NCBI RefSeq assembly: GCF_000014565.1
Contig: NC_008268.1
Coordinates: forward strand, 7,692,501-7,756,500
Length of the DNA stretch: 64,000 nt
Direction: 5' to 3'
Origin: Rhodococcus jostii RHA1
GTDB lineage: Bacteria; Actinomycetota; Actinomycetes; Mycobacteriales; Mycobacteriaceae
Under the pieces are notes generated by a model, which worked only from the letters and a program-made list of their open reading frames with translations, did not search any database and was not told the DNA's origin. How positions within the stretch are numbered: position 1 is the stretch's first letter; each line of letters begins with the position of its first letter. Position numbers and translations under genes: made by a program. This document shows, in pieces, positions 37,842 to 43,986 of the stretch.

Positions 37842-38805
37842 TCAGGCCACCTGGCGGCTCGTAGGCTTGGTCTTGGCGGGCTGGGCTGTTGGAGCGCATC
37901 GCGACTCCTGGGACTCCTGGCCCGCCACGTGCTTGCGGCGCTCACGCATCCGCTGGTATCGGACGTTGTCGCGCCGCCGCGGGTCGATCTTGTAGCGCGC
38001 CGTGACGATCGCCCGGCCCTCGGCCTCGGTGATCGGCGTGCCGTCGACGTCCCGCAAGGCGTACGGCTGGCCGGCACGCATACAGGCGGCGATCCGGGTG
38101 ACCAGATGGGTGGCCAGATGACAGATCGCGGACTCGTGGTGCCGGTCGCCGACCATCAACCGCTGGTACTTCGCCGCGAACTGGGTATCGACCCTGCGGG
38201 CCTGGTCGGCAGCGGTGCACAGCATCTCACGCAACAGCGGATCCCCGGCCTTGGTGATCGAGGACTCGACCTTGCTCACCCCGGACTGGCTGACCTTGGG
38301 AACCAGAGCGATGACCGCGCTGATCACCGCCCCCACGCCGGGAGCAGAGGCAACGATGCCGGCCGGGTCGGCGTCGGCGTAGAGGTTCGCGACTCGCTCG
38401 TCGATCTGCTTGATCTGACGGGTCAGGAACAGTGCCTGTTCGGCTTCGTGGGCGATGTCCTCAGCGAGCTCGGCGAAGTCTAGCAAGGGCAGCCGGGCGA
38501 GCAATTCGGAGTCGATCCGGTCGTTCTTGGTGTGCTTGGAGTAGTACTTACGCAGGTCGGCCGACTGGGTGGTCGGGACCATCACCACGCGTGCACCGTG
38601 GCGACGGAACCACTCCGCCAACACGATCCACGCGTTCCGGGTCGGCTCGACCACCACGGTCAGCTCTGCCGGATCGGGCAGGTCCAAGTCCGCCCACAAC
38701 CGTTCCAGAACTTCCGGCCACGCCATACCGTGGCACCATCACGGGCGAGCGTTGCCTGATGCTCCGCCCGGACAGCCACGTCGATCCCCAACGTCAATGC
38801 CATCG
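37842..38805 (-). pseudogene. IS110-family transposase, decayed
   Basis: RNA-guided DEDD transposase family. The start MALTLGIDVAVRAEHQATLA (first Asp) at 38805, after AGGAGT, reads to WRGRKFW and then shifts frame near 38715; the other frame continues ERLWADLDLPDPAELTVVVEP (Glu) and KHTKNDRIDSELLARLPLL (Asp, Asp). The family's central region of roughly 110 residues is missing between LLARLPLL and DFAELAEDIAHEAEQALF, and about 20 residues between VISAVIA and LVPKVSQSG (which keeps the catalytic-Ser motif). These in-frame losses and the frameshift make it inactive. Size is 294 residues against about 400. Confidence 0.85.
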
Positions 38806-38811
38806 TCATTA

Positions 38812-39347
38812 CTCCTGTCGGTCCACATCCCTGTTCACCAGGTGACTGACCATCGCGGCCACGGCCCAGACATTCTCTAAGCAGGAGTCCACGCCTACCG
38901 GCCGGCTCCAAGATCCCGAACAAGGACACCGTTCGACCAGACACCGAGCCCGCAGACGACCACTCAGAAAGCCAGGGATCACCAGGTGTCCCGGTCGGAC
39001 GTTCGGCCCGCCTGCGGACTCCCTCCGAGGCTAAATGTCGGAGGTCGGCGTTACAGTCGAGGTCCTGCGAGACAAGGGGTGCCACATGTGCTGGTGGGAG
39101 GGTTGATGGATGACGTCAGGGCGGTGCCGGCATCGTTGTCCGGTCGGTTCTCTGCGCTGCGGTCGACACGGAATCACCACCGGCTGTGGGGCGGCGCCGC
39201 CGCGCCGACGGATCCACTCGCCGATCCACGCACCACTCCTGCACAAACCTGCCGCGTCGTGGGAGTCGCCGGGACGGTGAGCATGGCGGGCGATCGCGAG
39301 TCGTCTCGGACTGCGACGGTGCTCGCCGCTCATGAATTGGGCCCGGC
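38812..39347. other. non-coding stretch between IS110 transposase and tnpB
   Basis: 536 bases. The part just upstream of the transposase corresponds to the IS110 left end, where the bridge RNA is encoded in active members. The right part must include the left end and promoter of the TnpB element. A plus-strand frame at 38986-39351 (121 codons) ends in ATGA overlap with the tnpB start, but its composition is not convincing and it has no serine-recombinase or HUH motif. Confidence 0.4.
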
Positions 39348-41150
39348 ATGACCGGGCCGGGATCGACCGTGCCGCGGCAGTTCGCGTTCACCACCCGCGC
39401 CCATGTGGCGGTCGACGCCGTGACCGGTGAGCCGATCGGCCTCGACGACGTCGACATCCGGGTGGGGTGGCTGCTGGACCTGATCGCGGCGGCGGGTGCC
39501 GAGTTGGTATCGCGGCTGTGGAAGCCGGCAACGTTCGATGTGCTCGCCGCCGGTCGGGACCGCCAGGACCGCAGACTGCCCGCACAGGGTCATGTCGCCG
39601 CGGCCCGCCTCGGCTGGAACCCGACCTACCCGGACGGGGTCTATGTGCCGTCACGGGTCACGCGGGTGGTTACCGCTCAGGTGATGGCCACCCTGCGGAC
39701 ACTGACGCACCGGGACACCGCGATCACGGCGCTCTCTCACCGATTCGACCCGGCCACCGGAGCTGTGGCGTGGCCGACCGAGCCGGGCGACCATGTGTCG
39801 GCGGGCTTCCTCCGCGGCGTGCGACGTCAGCTCGCCGCCCGCGCCCGCGGCGGTGGGGCACCGGCCGGCCGGTTGCGGATTAGCGACGTCCAGGGACTGC
39901 CGCAGACGAGCGCGATGGCCTGGCTGTCGGCCGCCGATCGACAGCTCGCACAGATCGCCGTCACAGACCGTGACCTGGTGTTGACGGTAAAGCTGCCCAC
40001 CAGCCCGGCCCCGTCGGGGCGGGCGCAGTGGCGGCGGGTGCGGCTGACCGCCGCCATCCCCGCGCACCTGCACGGCAGAGCTGTCATCGACTGGCATCTG
40101 CCGACCCTGGTCCTCGACCGCCGGGGCCTGCTGTGGCGGTGCGCGGCGACCGAACCCGTCCCTGCCGACGACCTGGACTCGGCCACCGTCGCGGTCGGGG
40201 TCGACTGGTCCCCGTCCACTCTCGGTGCCGCCGCCCTGACCGCCGACAACCCGGACGGGCTGGTGTCGGACTACCGGGGCTTCACCTACGACGACCGCGG
40301 CCTCGGGATCAAACTGGCCCGCCTACAGGCCGAGGGGCAGCTGCTGCACGCCAAGGCGGCCCGGTTGACGCAACTGGCCGCCACCGCCCCGCCCGAGGTC
40401 CGCGCCCAGCTGGAGGAGAAGATCGCCGTCCTCGACGCCCACCGCAAAGCGGTGGGTATCAAGCGGGGGAAAATCAACCGGGAACTCGCGTTCCACTTCG
40501 CCCGCCAGGTCACCGACTACGCCGCCACCGCCCAGGCGCAGCTGATCGCGGTCGAGGATCTCACCACCCTCGAGACCCGCGGGCACGGCCGGGTCAACAA
40601 CAACCGGGCCGCGCAGTCCGCCCGCCGACAAGCCGTCGCCGCCCTCGCCCACACCGCCGCCGGTGCCGGCATCACGGTGGTCTCGGTGCCCGCCCGGGGA
40701 TCGTCCGCACAGTGTCCGGGCTGCGACGAACCACTTGCACGCCCCGGCGGCTACCACACCGCGTGGTGCCCTCGCTGCCGGGTCGGCGGCAACCGCGACC
40801 ACGTCGCCGGGGTGAACCTGGCCAAACGCGCACTGCTCGGAAAAGGCAAGGTCACCCGTCGGCGTGGGCAGTTACCCGCGGTCCGGGTGGCCAAGCACGC
40901 GCCGGTGCGGCCATCGCGAGACAAACACGGTCCCACCCCGAGTCGGCCACGGCATCGCCGGGTCCGCCGCAGCCTGCCCACCGCACCACGGCGGTTGGGG
41001 GTGAATCCGAAACAGTATGTTCCTGCATCACAAGCGTCGGTGTGGGACACGGTCGAACCCGCACCGCCGCACGGTGATGCGGGTAGCCGTGACACACGTC
41101 CATCTCTAACGCCCGCCACACCAGTGGCAAAGGACATGAGATCTACGTAG
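39348..41150 (+). CDS. TnpB-like RuvC nuclease (OrfB/IS605-IS607 class)
   Basis: A 600-residue RNA-guided-nuclease-family protein. The split RuvC site is complete: D286 in AVGVDWSPST, E403 in LIAVEDLTTLETRGHGR and D484 in GGNRDHVAGVNLAKR. A zinc ribbon has C456/C459 (CPGC) and C474/C477 (CPRC). The N-terminal 280 residues form a recognition part longer than that of usual TnpB (about 400 in total), and a basic tail of about 100 residues follows RuvC. Size approaches compact Cas12 proteins such as Cas12m, but no CRISPR array is near. No tnpA transposase is adjacent. The end of the gene is at the junction with interrupted AONS sequence; an omega-RNA is expected around this 3' end. Confidence 0.85.
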   Translation: MTGPGSTVPRQFAFTTRAHVAVDAVTGEPIGLDDVDIRVGWLLDLIAAAGAELVSRLWKPATFDVLAAGRDRQDRRLPAQGHVAAARLGWNPTYPDGVYVPSRVTRVVTAQVMATLRTLTHRDTAITALSHRFDPATGAVAWPTEPGDHVSAGFLRGVRRQLAARARGGGAPAGRLRISDVQGLPQTSAMAWLSAADRQLAQIAVTDRDLVLTVKLPTSPAPSGRAQWRRVRLTAAIPAHLHGRAVIDWHLPTLVLDRRGLLWRCAATEPVPADDLDSATVAVGVDWSPSTLGAAALTADNPDGLVSDYRGFTYDDRGLGIKLARLQAEGQLLHAKAARLTQLAATAPPEVRAQLEEKIAVLDAHRKAVGIKRGKINRELAFHFARQVTDYAATAQAQLIAVEDLTTLETRGHGRVNNNRAAQSARRQAVAALAHTAAGAGITVVSVPARGSSAQCPGCDEPLARPGGYHTAWCPRCRVGGNRDHVAGVNLAKRALLGKGKVTRRRGQLPAVRVAKHAPVRPSRDKHGPTPSRPRHRRVRRSLPTAPRRLGVNPKQYVPASQASVWDTVEPAPPHGDAGSRDTRPSLTPATPVAKDMRST

Positions 41151-41152
41151 AC

Positions 41153-41372
41153 GCTGTCGTGGATGACCAGGCAGTGACGTTGGTGGCGTGTCCGCTCACG
41201 AGGGCGATCCGTCCTCGGTGCCGAGCAGGCCGGCCAATTCGGCTTTGAGTTCGCGGTGTACCGGATTCTCCCCGGACAGCAGCCGACTGGCCGAGCGGGA
41301 ACTGCCGTCGCGGGCGACCGCGTCCTGCACCGCCGACACGACGGCGGGGTGCCCGGACATGCCGAGGTAGTT
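41153..41372 (-). pseudogene. PKS AONS domain, middle piece (segment 2)
   Basis: Reading down from 41372 on the minus strand gives NYLGMSGHPAVVSAVQDAVA, RDGSSRSASRLLSGENPVHR and ELKAELAGLLGTEDG, the N-terminal half of an alpha-oxoamine synthase. A one-base shift then gives IALVSGHATNVT, and a second change gives LVIHDS. It continues the frame broken off at 43227 (VVNFSS) and stops where the TnpB element begins. It is thus a stranded fragment between two insertions, with its own frameshifts. Confidence 0.85.
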
Positions 41373-43226
41373 CTACCGGGGCTGCGCCCCAGCCCGACGA
41401 GGCATGTGGGGGCGGGCTGCAGTCAGGGGCCCCGGCCAGTCGGGTGATGACCCTGGTCGACGTTGTCGATCGGGTGTATGAACCGTCGTAGCGGTTGGTT
41501 GGCCTACCGGCCGCCCGATCGTCCGGAGCTCATCATGACCATACCGCGCAGCGTCGCCGATGTGCTGACCACGCACACGCTCTTCGAGGTCGAATGCATC
41601 GACCGGATGTACCTCAACGTCTACGTTCCCGGGCTGCAATACGCCCCGGGTCTCGTCGCCTACGTGCACCGACAACTCGGGTTGCCGGTCGCCTCGACCG
41701 CCCCGTTGGCGAGGATCACCGACCGCTTCTCGGCGGCGGTGCACCGTTTCGCCGACACCCGACACATCCCGTGGGTCGACTTCGTCAAGGGTCAGCGCAA
41801 GGACGACGTCATGCACGAGCACCTGCAGCACTTCACCGCGGCCGAGGGAGTGGTGTTCATCGGACGGGCGCAGGAGAAGACCCCGTTGTTCCGCACCGAG
41901 AAACGCCGCGACGCGGACGGCAACAGCTACCCGTGGATCGTCAAAACCACCGGCATGGTCAACCATTACTACTTCTACTGCGTCGACGCGGACTTCGGAC
42001 CTTTCTTCCTCAAGTTCTGCTCGTACTTCCCCTACAACGCCAAACTCTGTATCAACGGCCACCATTGGGCCCAACGTCAGGCGGCGAGGGCCGGGCTCGG
42101 GTTCACCGCGCTCGACAACGCCTTCGCCGCCGTCGACGACCCCGACGCGCTGCAGGCGATCTGCGATCGGCTGACCGGTCCCCGGATCGATGCCCTGCTC
42201 CGCAAGTGGCTGGCGATTCTGCCGGATCCGTTCACCGACGCCGATCGGGACGTCGGCTACCGCTACGACCTGTCGATCCTCCAGGCCGAGTTCTCCCTGA
42301 CCCAGATGCTCGACGCCCCGGTCTCGGGGCGGGTGTTCTTCGAGCAGGTCATCCGCGACAACCTCGATCTCGGTCGCCCCGATCAGGTCACGCTGGTGTT
42401 CGACCGGCGGTTGATGCGCCGGGGGCCGCGTGCCACCCCGGGACGATTCCGCACCCGGGTGATCACCGAAGGCGTCATCCCCAGCCTGCACGTCGACTAC
42501 AAGCACACCACCATCAAGCAGTACCACAAACAGGGACGCGCCCTGCGTACCGAGACCACCATCAACGACACCCGCGATTTCCACCTCGGGAAACGACTGA
42601 CACATCTGCCCGCCCTGCGGGAGATCGGCTTTCACGCCAACCGACGCCTGCTGCGCGCCGGGCGACTCAGCCACGACCCGATCACCGGCGCCGACGCCCT
42701 CGCCGCCATCACCGGCCCCCTCACCACCGCCACCGGCACCCGCGTCCCGGGCTTGCGGTTCGCCGACCAGCGCAGCCACGCCCTGCTCTCCGCGCTGCTG
42801 GTCTTCCGGCTGCACCCGAACGGCTTCACCAACAAGGACTTGCGCACCCTCACCGGCGAGCTGCGCGGACTCGACCCGGACACGGTGTCTACTGGGCAGA
42901 TGACCTACGACCTGCGCCGGCTGAAAACCCGCAACCTCATCGTCCGGATCGAGGGCACCCACCGGTATCAGGTCACCAACCACGGACTCGACACCGCGAA
43001 GTTCCTCACCTGTGTCCACGATCGGGTCCTGCGCACCGGCCTGGCCGAACTCGCCACGCCGACAACCACTCCCGGTCGCCTGCGATCGGCTGCTACCACG
43101 TATCGCAACGCTGTCGATACCCTCACCGGCACAGCGCAACTCGCAGCCTGAAACACCAAGCCGTCGAACGTGACCCGAACACCACAAACTTGACCCCAAA
43201 ATCCGGCTACGCCATCTTTAGCTACC
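41373..43226 (+). mobile_element. new single-gene insertion element, about 1854 bp
   Basis: The AONS gene reads VVNFSS up to 43227 and resumes with NYLG at 41372; only the Tyr codon is affected. Everything between is inserted, which fixes the element to within a base or two. It holds one gene (41535-43151) with about 160 bases of 5' and 75 bases of 3' flank. The left flank has GGGGCtgcGCCCC and GGCCtaccGGCC hairpins. I see no terminal inverted repeats and no clear target-site duplication; one base of the target seems lost or altered. Confidence 0.7.
41535..43151 (+). CDS. uncharacterised 538-residue protein of the insertion element
   Basis: I recognise this as one of a family of multi-copy actinobacterial proteins without assigned function. 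The ATG at 41535 has GGAG seven bases upstream. Conserved-looking blocks: PWVDFVKGQRKDDVMHEHL near residue 80, VVFIGRAQEKTPLFRTEKRR near 105, VNHYYFYCVDADFGPFFLKF near 140, FPYNAKLCINGHHWAQRQAA near 170, and VDYKHTTIKQYHKQGRALRT near 320. A C-terminal winged helix (TNKDLRTLTGELRGL ... MTYDLRRLKTRNLIVRIEG ... YQVTNHGL) fits DNA binding. Since it is the only gene in the insert, I infer it is the transposase or recombinase. No DDE, HUH or RuvC motif is evident. Confidence 0.6.
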   Translation: MTIPRSVADVLTTHTLFEVECIDRMYLNVYVPGLQYAPGLVAYVHRQLGLPVASTAPLARITDRFSAAVHRFADTRHIPWVDFVKGQRKDDVMHEHLQHFTAAEGVVFIGRAQEKTPLFRTEKRRDADGNSYPWIVKTTGMVNHYYFYCVDADFGPFFLKFCSYFPYNAKLCINGHHWAQRQAARAGLGFTALDNAFAAVDDPDALQAICDRLTGPRIDALLRKWLAILPDPFTDADRDVGYRYDLSILQAEFSLTQMLDAPVSGRVFFEQVIRDNLDLGRPDQVTLVFDRRLMRRGPRATPGRFRTRVITEGVIPSLHVDYKHTTIKQYHKQGRALRTETTINDTRDFHLGKRLTHLPALREIGFHANRRLLRAGRLSHDPITGADALAAITGPLTTATGTRVPGLRFADQRSHALLSALLVFRLHPNGFTNKDLRTLTGELRGLDPDTVSTGQMTYDLRRLKTRNLIVRIEGTHRYQVTNHGLDTAKFLTCVHDRVLRTGLAELATPTTTPGRLRSAATTYRNAVDTLTGTAQLAA

Positions 43227-43986
43227 TAGCTGGAGAAGTTGACGACCTCCGCGCCCCAGATCATCGACGTGTCTCGCGTGGCGCCGTCGTTGACGAGGAA
43301 GTACGGGTTGCTGACCCGAGCCCCTCGGCCGTGTTCAGCCGTGCGGCGAGCGCCTGAACCTCCGGGAACCCCGCGATGCGGAACTCGGGTGCGACCGCGG
43401 TGCGTAGGGCCTCCGGTTCCTACGAAACCGACGGTTCCGGCCGTGGGGACACGGGTGCGTGGTGCGAGGTCACGTGCGCGATGACATCGCCGAGGGTGCG
43501 GCTAGGGGAGAACCACTGCGGTTCGACGACGAGACCGGGGAATGCGCGGCTCACCCCGCCGAACAGGTCGGTGATCATGATCGAGTTGAATCCGAGGTCG
43601 CCGACGAGCGTATGTATCGCCTTCAGCGCCGCTGCCGGGAATCCGCTGACCCGGGCGACTTCCGCGCGCACCCTCGTCGCGACGTCGCCGACCGGTGTAG
43701 CGGGGACCCGGCCCGGCGTCCGGCGTCGCCGCCGGCACGGGGAGGGCTACTCCGGGAACGCCGTTGGCGGCAGCAGCGAGGACGGCGGCCTGTTCCCGGA
43801 AGAGCGCGATCGGTTGTTCCCTGGTGGTGTCTCCGGGTCGGGCGTCGGGCGTCGCGTGGGCGGGTGCGGGGTCGGCGCGGCCGCGGGTGCCTCGTCGGGT
43901 GTCCAGAAGCGAGCGGTGGTCGCGAACTCGTATCCGCTGAGCCGTCGGCGGACTCGGGCACCCGGCTCGTGGATGTCGCCCGGGGG
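43227..43986 (-). pseudogene. PKS remnant: AT linker, ACP and start of AONS (segment 1)
   Basis: From high to low coordinate: GARVRRRLSGYEFATTARFW, the linker after a PKS acyltransferase domain; a frame change; then REQPIALFREQAAVLAAAAN; another change; then an acyl carrier protein (VRAEVARVSGFPAAALKAIH ... VGDLGFNSIMITDL, with the phosphopantetheine Ser in LGFNS); after a stop, EFRIAGFPEVQALAARLNTA; and NPYFLVNDGATRDTSMIWGA ... VVNFSS, the start of an AONS domain, cut at 43227. At least three frameshifts or stops. Its upstream end abuts the stop of the membrane-protein gene, so the KS-AT part has been deleted. Confidence 0.82.

Follow-up and report, generated by a model that had tools for sequence, protein, structure and literature searches.

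The window analyzed here is a stretch of 64,000 nucleotides of Rhodococcus jostii RHA1 (NC_008268.1, positions 7,692,501 to 7,756,500; G000:C1:7692501-7756500, G000 being the genome that carries it). In this window a block holding one gene interrupts an AONS-like gene of the minus strand at 41372/43229. Sequence comparison shows it to be a genuine insertion sequence (IS), with its mobility, precise ends and target read from other copies and from empty sites. It is probably an autonomous IS whose sole protein, of 538 residues, is the transposase. This would be a tyrosine nickase that combines a TBP-like domain of the Rep_trans type, present as a duplication, with a winged helix, and it would transpose a single DNA strand.

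An insertion sequence in an AONS gene

The original prediction placed an undescribed IS family at 41373-43226 (1854 bp). The insertion was confirmed but its limits were slightly off: empty sites and the ends common to other copies put the element at 41376-43228 on the plus strand (1853 bp). The interruption of AONS was found at the positions claimed, the minus strand reading VVNFSS beginning near 43230 and NYLG reaching to 41372 on either side of the insert. In three relatives, G007 (locus L011), G026 (L012) and G024 (L017), nothing interrupts the target gene here. Their flanks are joined directly, with an overlap of 1-3 bases at TA/CTA, and read GTTCTA/GCTGG in L011, GTTGTA/GCTGG in L012 and GTTGTA/ACTGG in L017 (here and below the slash between bases marks the junction). 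Judging by the match table, the flanks are adjacent in G005, G008 and G010 too. On the coding strand, the target includes a stop codon in L011 and in the window lineage and a tyrosine codon in L012 and L017; a tyrosine-to-stop change would have created the target CTAG in the AONS gene.

At the left junction lies the target CTA (41373-41375; one CTA in the empty site L011, GTA in L012 and L017), presumably cut after the A. On the right, a CTA (43226-43228) terminates the element, as seen at the junction and in other copies, and is followed by the G of the target (43229), identified by comparison with the empty sites. CTA is present at both junctions of the window copy and once in L011. The predicted lack of a target duplication holds only if the second CTA is part of the element, as its retention in other copies suggests, since the sequence gives the same picture for a 2-3 bp duplication and for a CTA owned by the element. 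Also as predicted, terminal inverted repeats were missing (of 59 inverted pairs, the 25 longest include none that links both ends), and the block contains a single gene (41535-43151, plus strand), with its ATG at 41535.

DNA matches were found in 14 of the 28 genomes of the genus, several of them merely short or empty-site matches. G000 itself has one full copy and one internally deleted copy (G000:C2:20291-21338), which starts at the base equal to 41373 and whose right-side match stops at 43213. L005, L007, L008 and L093 have a common start base, and L005 to L008 end at CTAG, after which the sequences differ. Over 1855 bp, L005 and L094 show 99.2% identity, yet 21 bp are what their left flanks of 600 bp have in common. 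There are also gene-less copies of 260-270 bp with both ends (L064, L067 and L069), in which, by eye, the left end is reduced to about 45 nt and the leader is gone. A DNA search with the short copy gave four copies in 3 of the 28 genomes, the fourth, in G026, judged by a 79% match over positions 5-259 of 270. The site of the short copy of G009 is uninterrupted in G017, with a gapless join at 86% identity and CCAG instead of CTAG. We looked for a fixed chromosomal place with conserved neighbors; instead, the copies have differing neighbors and share both ends of the window element. Further copies and empty sites were thus both found in the genus, and the element has what is generally asked of an IS: defined ends, several unrelated sites and empty sites. 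The proposal of an undescribed family stands as well, since the element is mobile, has fixed ends and is covered by no family model or retrieved paper.

Relatives of the protein are very abundant. Three overlapping searches (E <= 0.001) recovered at least 8000 of 8000, at least 6797 of 7998 and at least 8000 of 8000 candidates, and among the best 120 listed per search nearly all were named 'hypothetical protein'. A set of 27 loci was taken from genome contigs of Actinomycetota, Chloroflexi, Acidobacteria, Proteobacteria, Planctomycetes and a Capsulimonadaceae bacterium. Among the genomes drawn, relatives, often in pieces, appeared in 11 of 298 from the order and 11 of 296 from the phylum (G000 in both), besides 24 of 72,556 plasmid records. 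Phages gave no relatives, and neither did the 71 pattern matches in viral contigs. On a linear plasmid of Mycobacterium riyadhense (L097:1486-4542), two members of different subfamilies lie side by side.

Terminal sequences and target

The left end (41376-41406), CTA/MCGRGGC...GCCYCAGMCCGAC, is kept across phyla, reading CTA-MCGRGGCtNcGCCYCAGMCCGAC from Rhodococcus to Burkholderiales and Chloroflexi. It includes a hairpin, GGGGC-TGC-GCCCC (41378-41390), with compensatory changes over 20 distinct sequences: column pair 7-17 divides evenly into 10 GC and 10 AU, and at 10-14 there are 17 CG and 3 UA. The structure made of this hairpin and the leader stem (see below) had 95.9% of its cells paired, compared with 90.0% for shuffles, and the pairing was lost when the partner was slid. 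The folding energy of the left end as single strand was not clearly better than that of shuffles, so that the hairpin stands by its covariation. The right end is unlike the left in sequence. It has a conserved box, AACTTGAC (43187-43194), and a hairpin detected by folding analysis, GGC-TAC-GCC (43205-43213). The box was invariant in the 12 of 12 right ends of alignment A5, which had been picked among those showing it. Most right ends read consist of AACTTGAC, about 25-35 nt and then CTA/G; the box is altered in L040, and the right ends of L050, L097 and L098 diverge more. Both ends are shared by copies in Actinomycetota, Chloroflexota, Acidobacteriota and Proteobacteria.

The target is CTA/G, with A favored at position -7 (18 of 24 distinct left flanks, p 1.2e-9 uncorrected). 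To obtain these flanks, 54 left-end matches were reduced to 29 by merging those alike in 15 of 20 bases, and five ending in AGTA (L005, L007, L036, L051 and L086) were excluded as apparent ends of other IS. Positions -3 to -1 had C in 24, T in 20 and A in 23 of the 24, numbers that are not independent, the search pattern having included CTA with 3 mismatches allowed. Nor does the G at +1 count independently, because the right-end pattern required CTAG; it is derived from the empty sites (L017 has A) and from copies that diverge there. CCA was found in four left flanks, L040, L077, L080 and L115. The last three have distinct left ends (GTGAGG/GAGAGG) and probably belong to a second subfamily with a protein identity of about 44%.

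Left flanks ending in ...GTTGCAGTA and ...CTGTAGTA were rejected as a target preference, for they look like the ends of other IS abutting CTA. L002 and L037, both retained among the 24, have GTACAA in common and may also be IS ends. Such apparent foreign ends abut the left CTA of the element in 5 of the 29 distinct flanks and also in L064, the only copy with a named transposase beside it (IS701). This suggests, as far as flanking sequence can tell, that other insertion sequences use the same CTA(G) target.

In the right ends read, WAG was seen (by eye, no statistics) 3-5 nt upstream of the terminal CTAG. The guides of IS608 pair with the cut site, and here we propose that WAG could do so because CTAG is self-complementary; the WAG(-N3-5-)CTAG repeat at the right end may in this way choose CTAG targets. 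Unlike in IS608, the left hairpin starts 2 nt past the presumed left cut, leaving no room for a 5' guide of that type.

The 538-residue protein

The AlphaFold model has a TBP-like double repeat at about residues 15-377 and a winged helix at about 390-505. The C-terminal winged helix of the original prediction is thus present in the model, and the hidden enzyme fold that it proposed to look for would be the predicted TBP-like double repeat, to which the nearest enzymes are Rep_trans rolling-circle initiators. Structural neighbors in the PDB include TBP and Rep_trans (Z <= 9.1). At the sequence level, nothing significant was found in Pfam, NCBIfam, PHROG or the PDB. In agreement with the reported lack of such signatures, there was no match to DDE, DEDD or RuvC families and no conserved HUH by eye.

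The Rep_trans motif scheme consists of N' (D), I (RxD), II (T/SxY/ExG), III (YxKxxE) and IV (W/LxRxE). Its acidic and tyrosine catalytic positions have conserved counterparts in the same order in our protein: D23, QxE252, KxYxK (Y330) and RxE340. By alignment and model, D23 (codon 41601-41603) corresponds to the metal aspartate of motif N'; by alignment, E252 (42288-42290) is the counterpart of motif I, here QxE. Motif II is reduced to Y322. The proposed nucleophile Y330 (42522-42524), in K-Q-Y-x-K and conserved in 344 of 345 sequences, corresponds to motif III, which is YxK without the fixed E. R338-x-E340 (42546-42554), with R338 and E340 each in 344 of 345, represents motif IV as RxE. The prediction and the conserved motif set together support a TBP-fold tyrosine nickase. 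Weighing against it, Foldseek with the full protein ranked 4cij first but with low TM-scores. The catalytic domain alone gave weaker results than the full protein, with unrelated proteins at low probability in the top rows. Neither did the protein match the Pfam model PF02486, although the RepD control sequence does. This model matched in 0 of 198 genomes of the phylum (G000 included) and, as a control, in 1 of 14 named genomes, that of Bacillus subtilis. The hhalign probability against Rep_trans was 0.1, with a Rep_trans profile of just five sequences. As the Pfam model and the profile tests were negative, we do not file the protein under Rep_trans, but we propose that it acts in the manner of these enzymes.

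The resemblance to Rep_trans initiators and MOBT relaxases (RepD/RepSTK1, ICEBs1, Tn916) consists in the duplicated TBP-like fold, here predicted, in the succession of motifs D - xE - Y - [KR]xYxK - RxE, placed on equivalent strands, and in the hairpin substrates. The differences, apart from the missing Pfam and profile-profile matches, are that here it belongs to an IS and not to a plasmid origin or a conjugation module, that the winged helix replaces the DNA-binding domain of RepD and that no helix lies between motifs III and IV. Rep-Arvir, in the parts of PMC13107129 available to us, also combines a TBP-like catalytic domain with a winged helix, is related to Rep_trans by structure only and has one viral-structure match in common with our protein. 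However, it is a replication initiator of archaeal viruses and plasmids with a different tyrosine motif, and no IS is described among Rep-Arvir in those parts. On a Paraburkholderia plasmid (L098:1453-2967), a protein annotated as an ArsR regulator is related at 26% identity and carries the catalytic motifs, its winged helix being the sole part matching Pfam.

Proposed mechanism and alternatives

Single-strand movement is what the enzyme type, the hairpin ends and the lack of inverted repeats lead us to infer. The element would thus move much as IS200/IS605 or IS91 do, though by means of an unrelated enzyme. The protein would most likely recognize the hairpin at each end as single-stranded DNA and cut one strand after the left-junction CTA and, on the right, after the CTA in which the element ends, with Y330 as nucleophile and D23, E252 and E340 holding the metal. 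The flanks would be rejoined and the freed strand, presumably through a circular intermediate, would be inserted into a new CTA/G target, preferably with A at -7. The original prediction left the mobilizer as either the protein or an RNA from the 5' flank. Model and motifs favor the protein, and the gene-less copies, with so short a left end, suggest that the leader RNA is not needed in cis.

The leader does contain a conserved, covarying stem (41427-41438 with 41520-41531, changes on both sides in 4 of 11 pairs), whose 3' arm lies directly before the start codon. An RNA-guided element in the style of IS110/IS1111, with this long stem as guide, is nevertheless unlikely. The target is short and similar across phyla, the gene-less copies lack the leader (a guide might act in trans), and the protein had no DEDD or RuvC match in the same searches in which a neighboring ORF (open reading frame) matched IS110. 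No Rfam leader family was found in the window (gathering threshold) or in 8 related loci (E up to 0.5). Since the short copies dispense with it, we think translational control a more likely role for the leader than that of guide. A cut-and-paste DDE element would explain why TA occurs at both junctions but a single time in the empty site, as IS630/Tc1 elements duplicate TA inside CTAG, which is the target here. But their DDE enzyme and inverted repeats are both missing here (no DDE family match; no pair linking the ends among the 25 longest of 59), the two ends differ in sequence and the model is TBP-like, making this origin very improbable.

The fold is that of plasmid initiators and relatives occur on the 24 plasmid records, so the block could be what is left of a rolling-circle plasmid that integrated, its initiator serving replication only and other enzymes moving the DNA. 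This seems quite unlikely for a one-gene unit with two fixed ends, many sites, precise empty sites and short derivatives. Least probable of all is an HUH (Y1) transposase diverged beyond recognition. The lack of inverted repeats, subterminal hairpins, lack of a long duplication, short target at one end and gene-less derivatives are all shared with IS200/IS605 and IS91/Helitron elements, but the transposases of these are HUH enzymes of unrelated fold. Here the proposed tyrosine is in a strand of the model and not in a helix, no conserved HUH was seen by eye in alignment A1 or the A3 column list, and the PDB neighbors include TBP and Rep_trans.

Two other insertions share the AONS gene. A gene for a 600-aa TnpB-like protein (Cas12f1-like TNB domain) lies at 39348-41150 on the plus strand. 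L011 carries TnpB-like DNA (39855-41375 matched at 87%, to the locus edge) without the 1853-bp element, indicating that the TnpB-like insertion came first. A common origin of both was rejected, as the left-end pattern occurs in the window only at 41376 and there is no AACTTGAC near 41150 (by eye); we take the TnpB-like gene as a separate, older insertion. At 37842-39085 (minus strand) there is a degenerate transposase of the IS110 family, with the ORF 37842-38726 matching IS110 models.

With somewhat more reserve than for the window element itself, we lean towards a whole class of transposons in several bacterial phyla, with thousands of database relatives, that move as single-stranded DNA by means of a TBP-fold tyrosine nickase. 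This would be a further superfamily beside the DDE, HUH, tyrosine and serine recombinase and RuvC-type enzymes. To our knowledge, the fold of these rolling-circle nickases is not known from any transposon enzyme. Our literature searches, whose coverage left out preprints and most subscription journals, found no report of such a transposase. If true, a function would be assigned to a very common 'hypothetical protein', and TBP-like nickases would be linked to insertion sequences, as HUH enzymes already are. The nickase fold of plasmid replication and conjugation would also power transposition, a new route for gene jumping in bacteria. The precise ends, the four-base target and the natural short derivatives make the system directly testable and possibly useful as a tool for single-strand integration.
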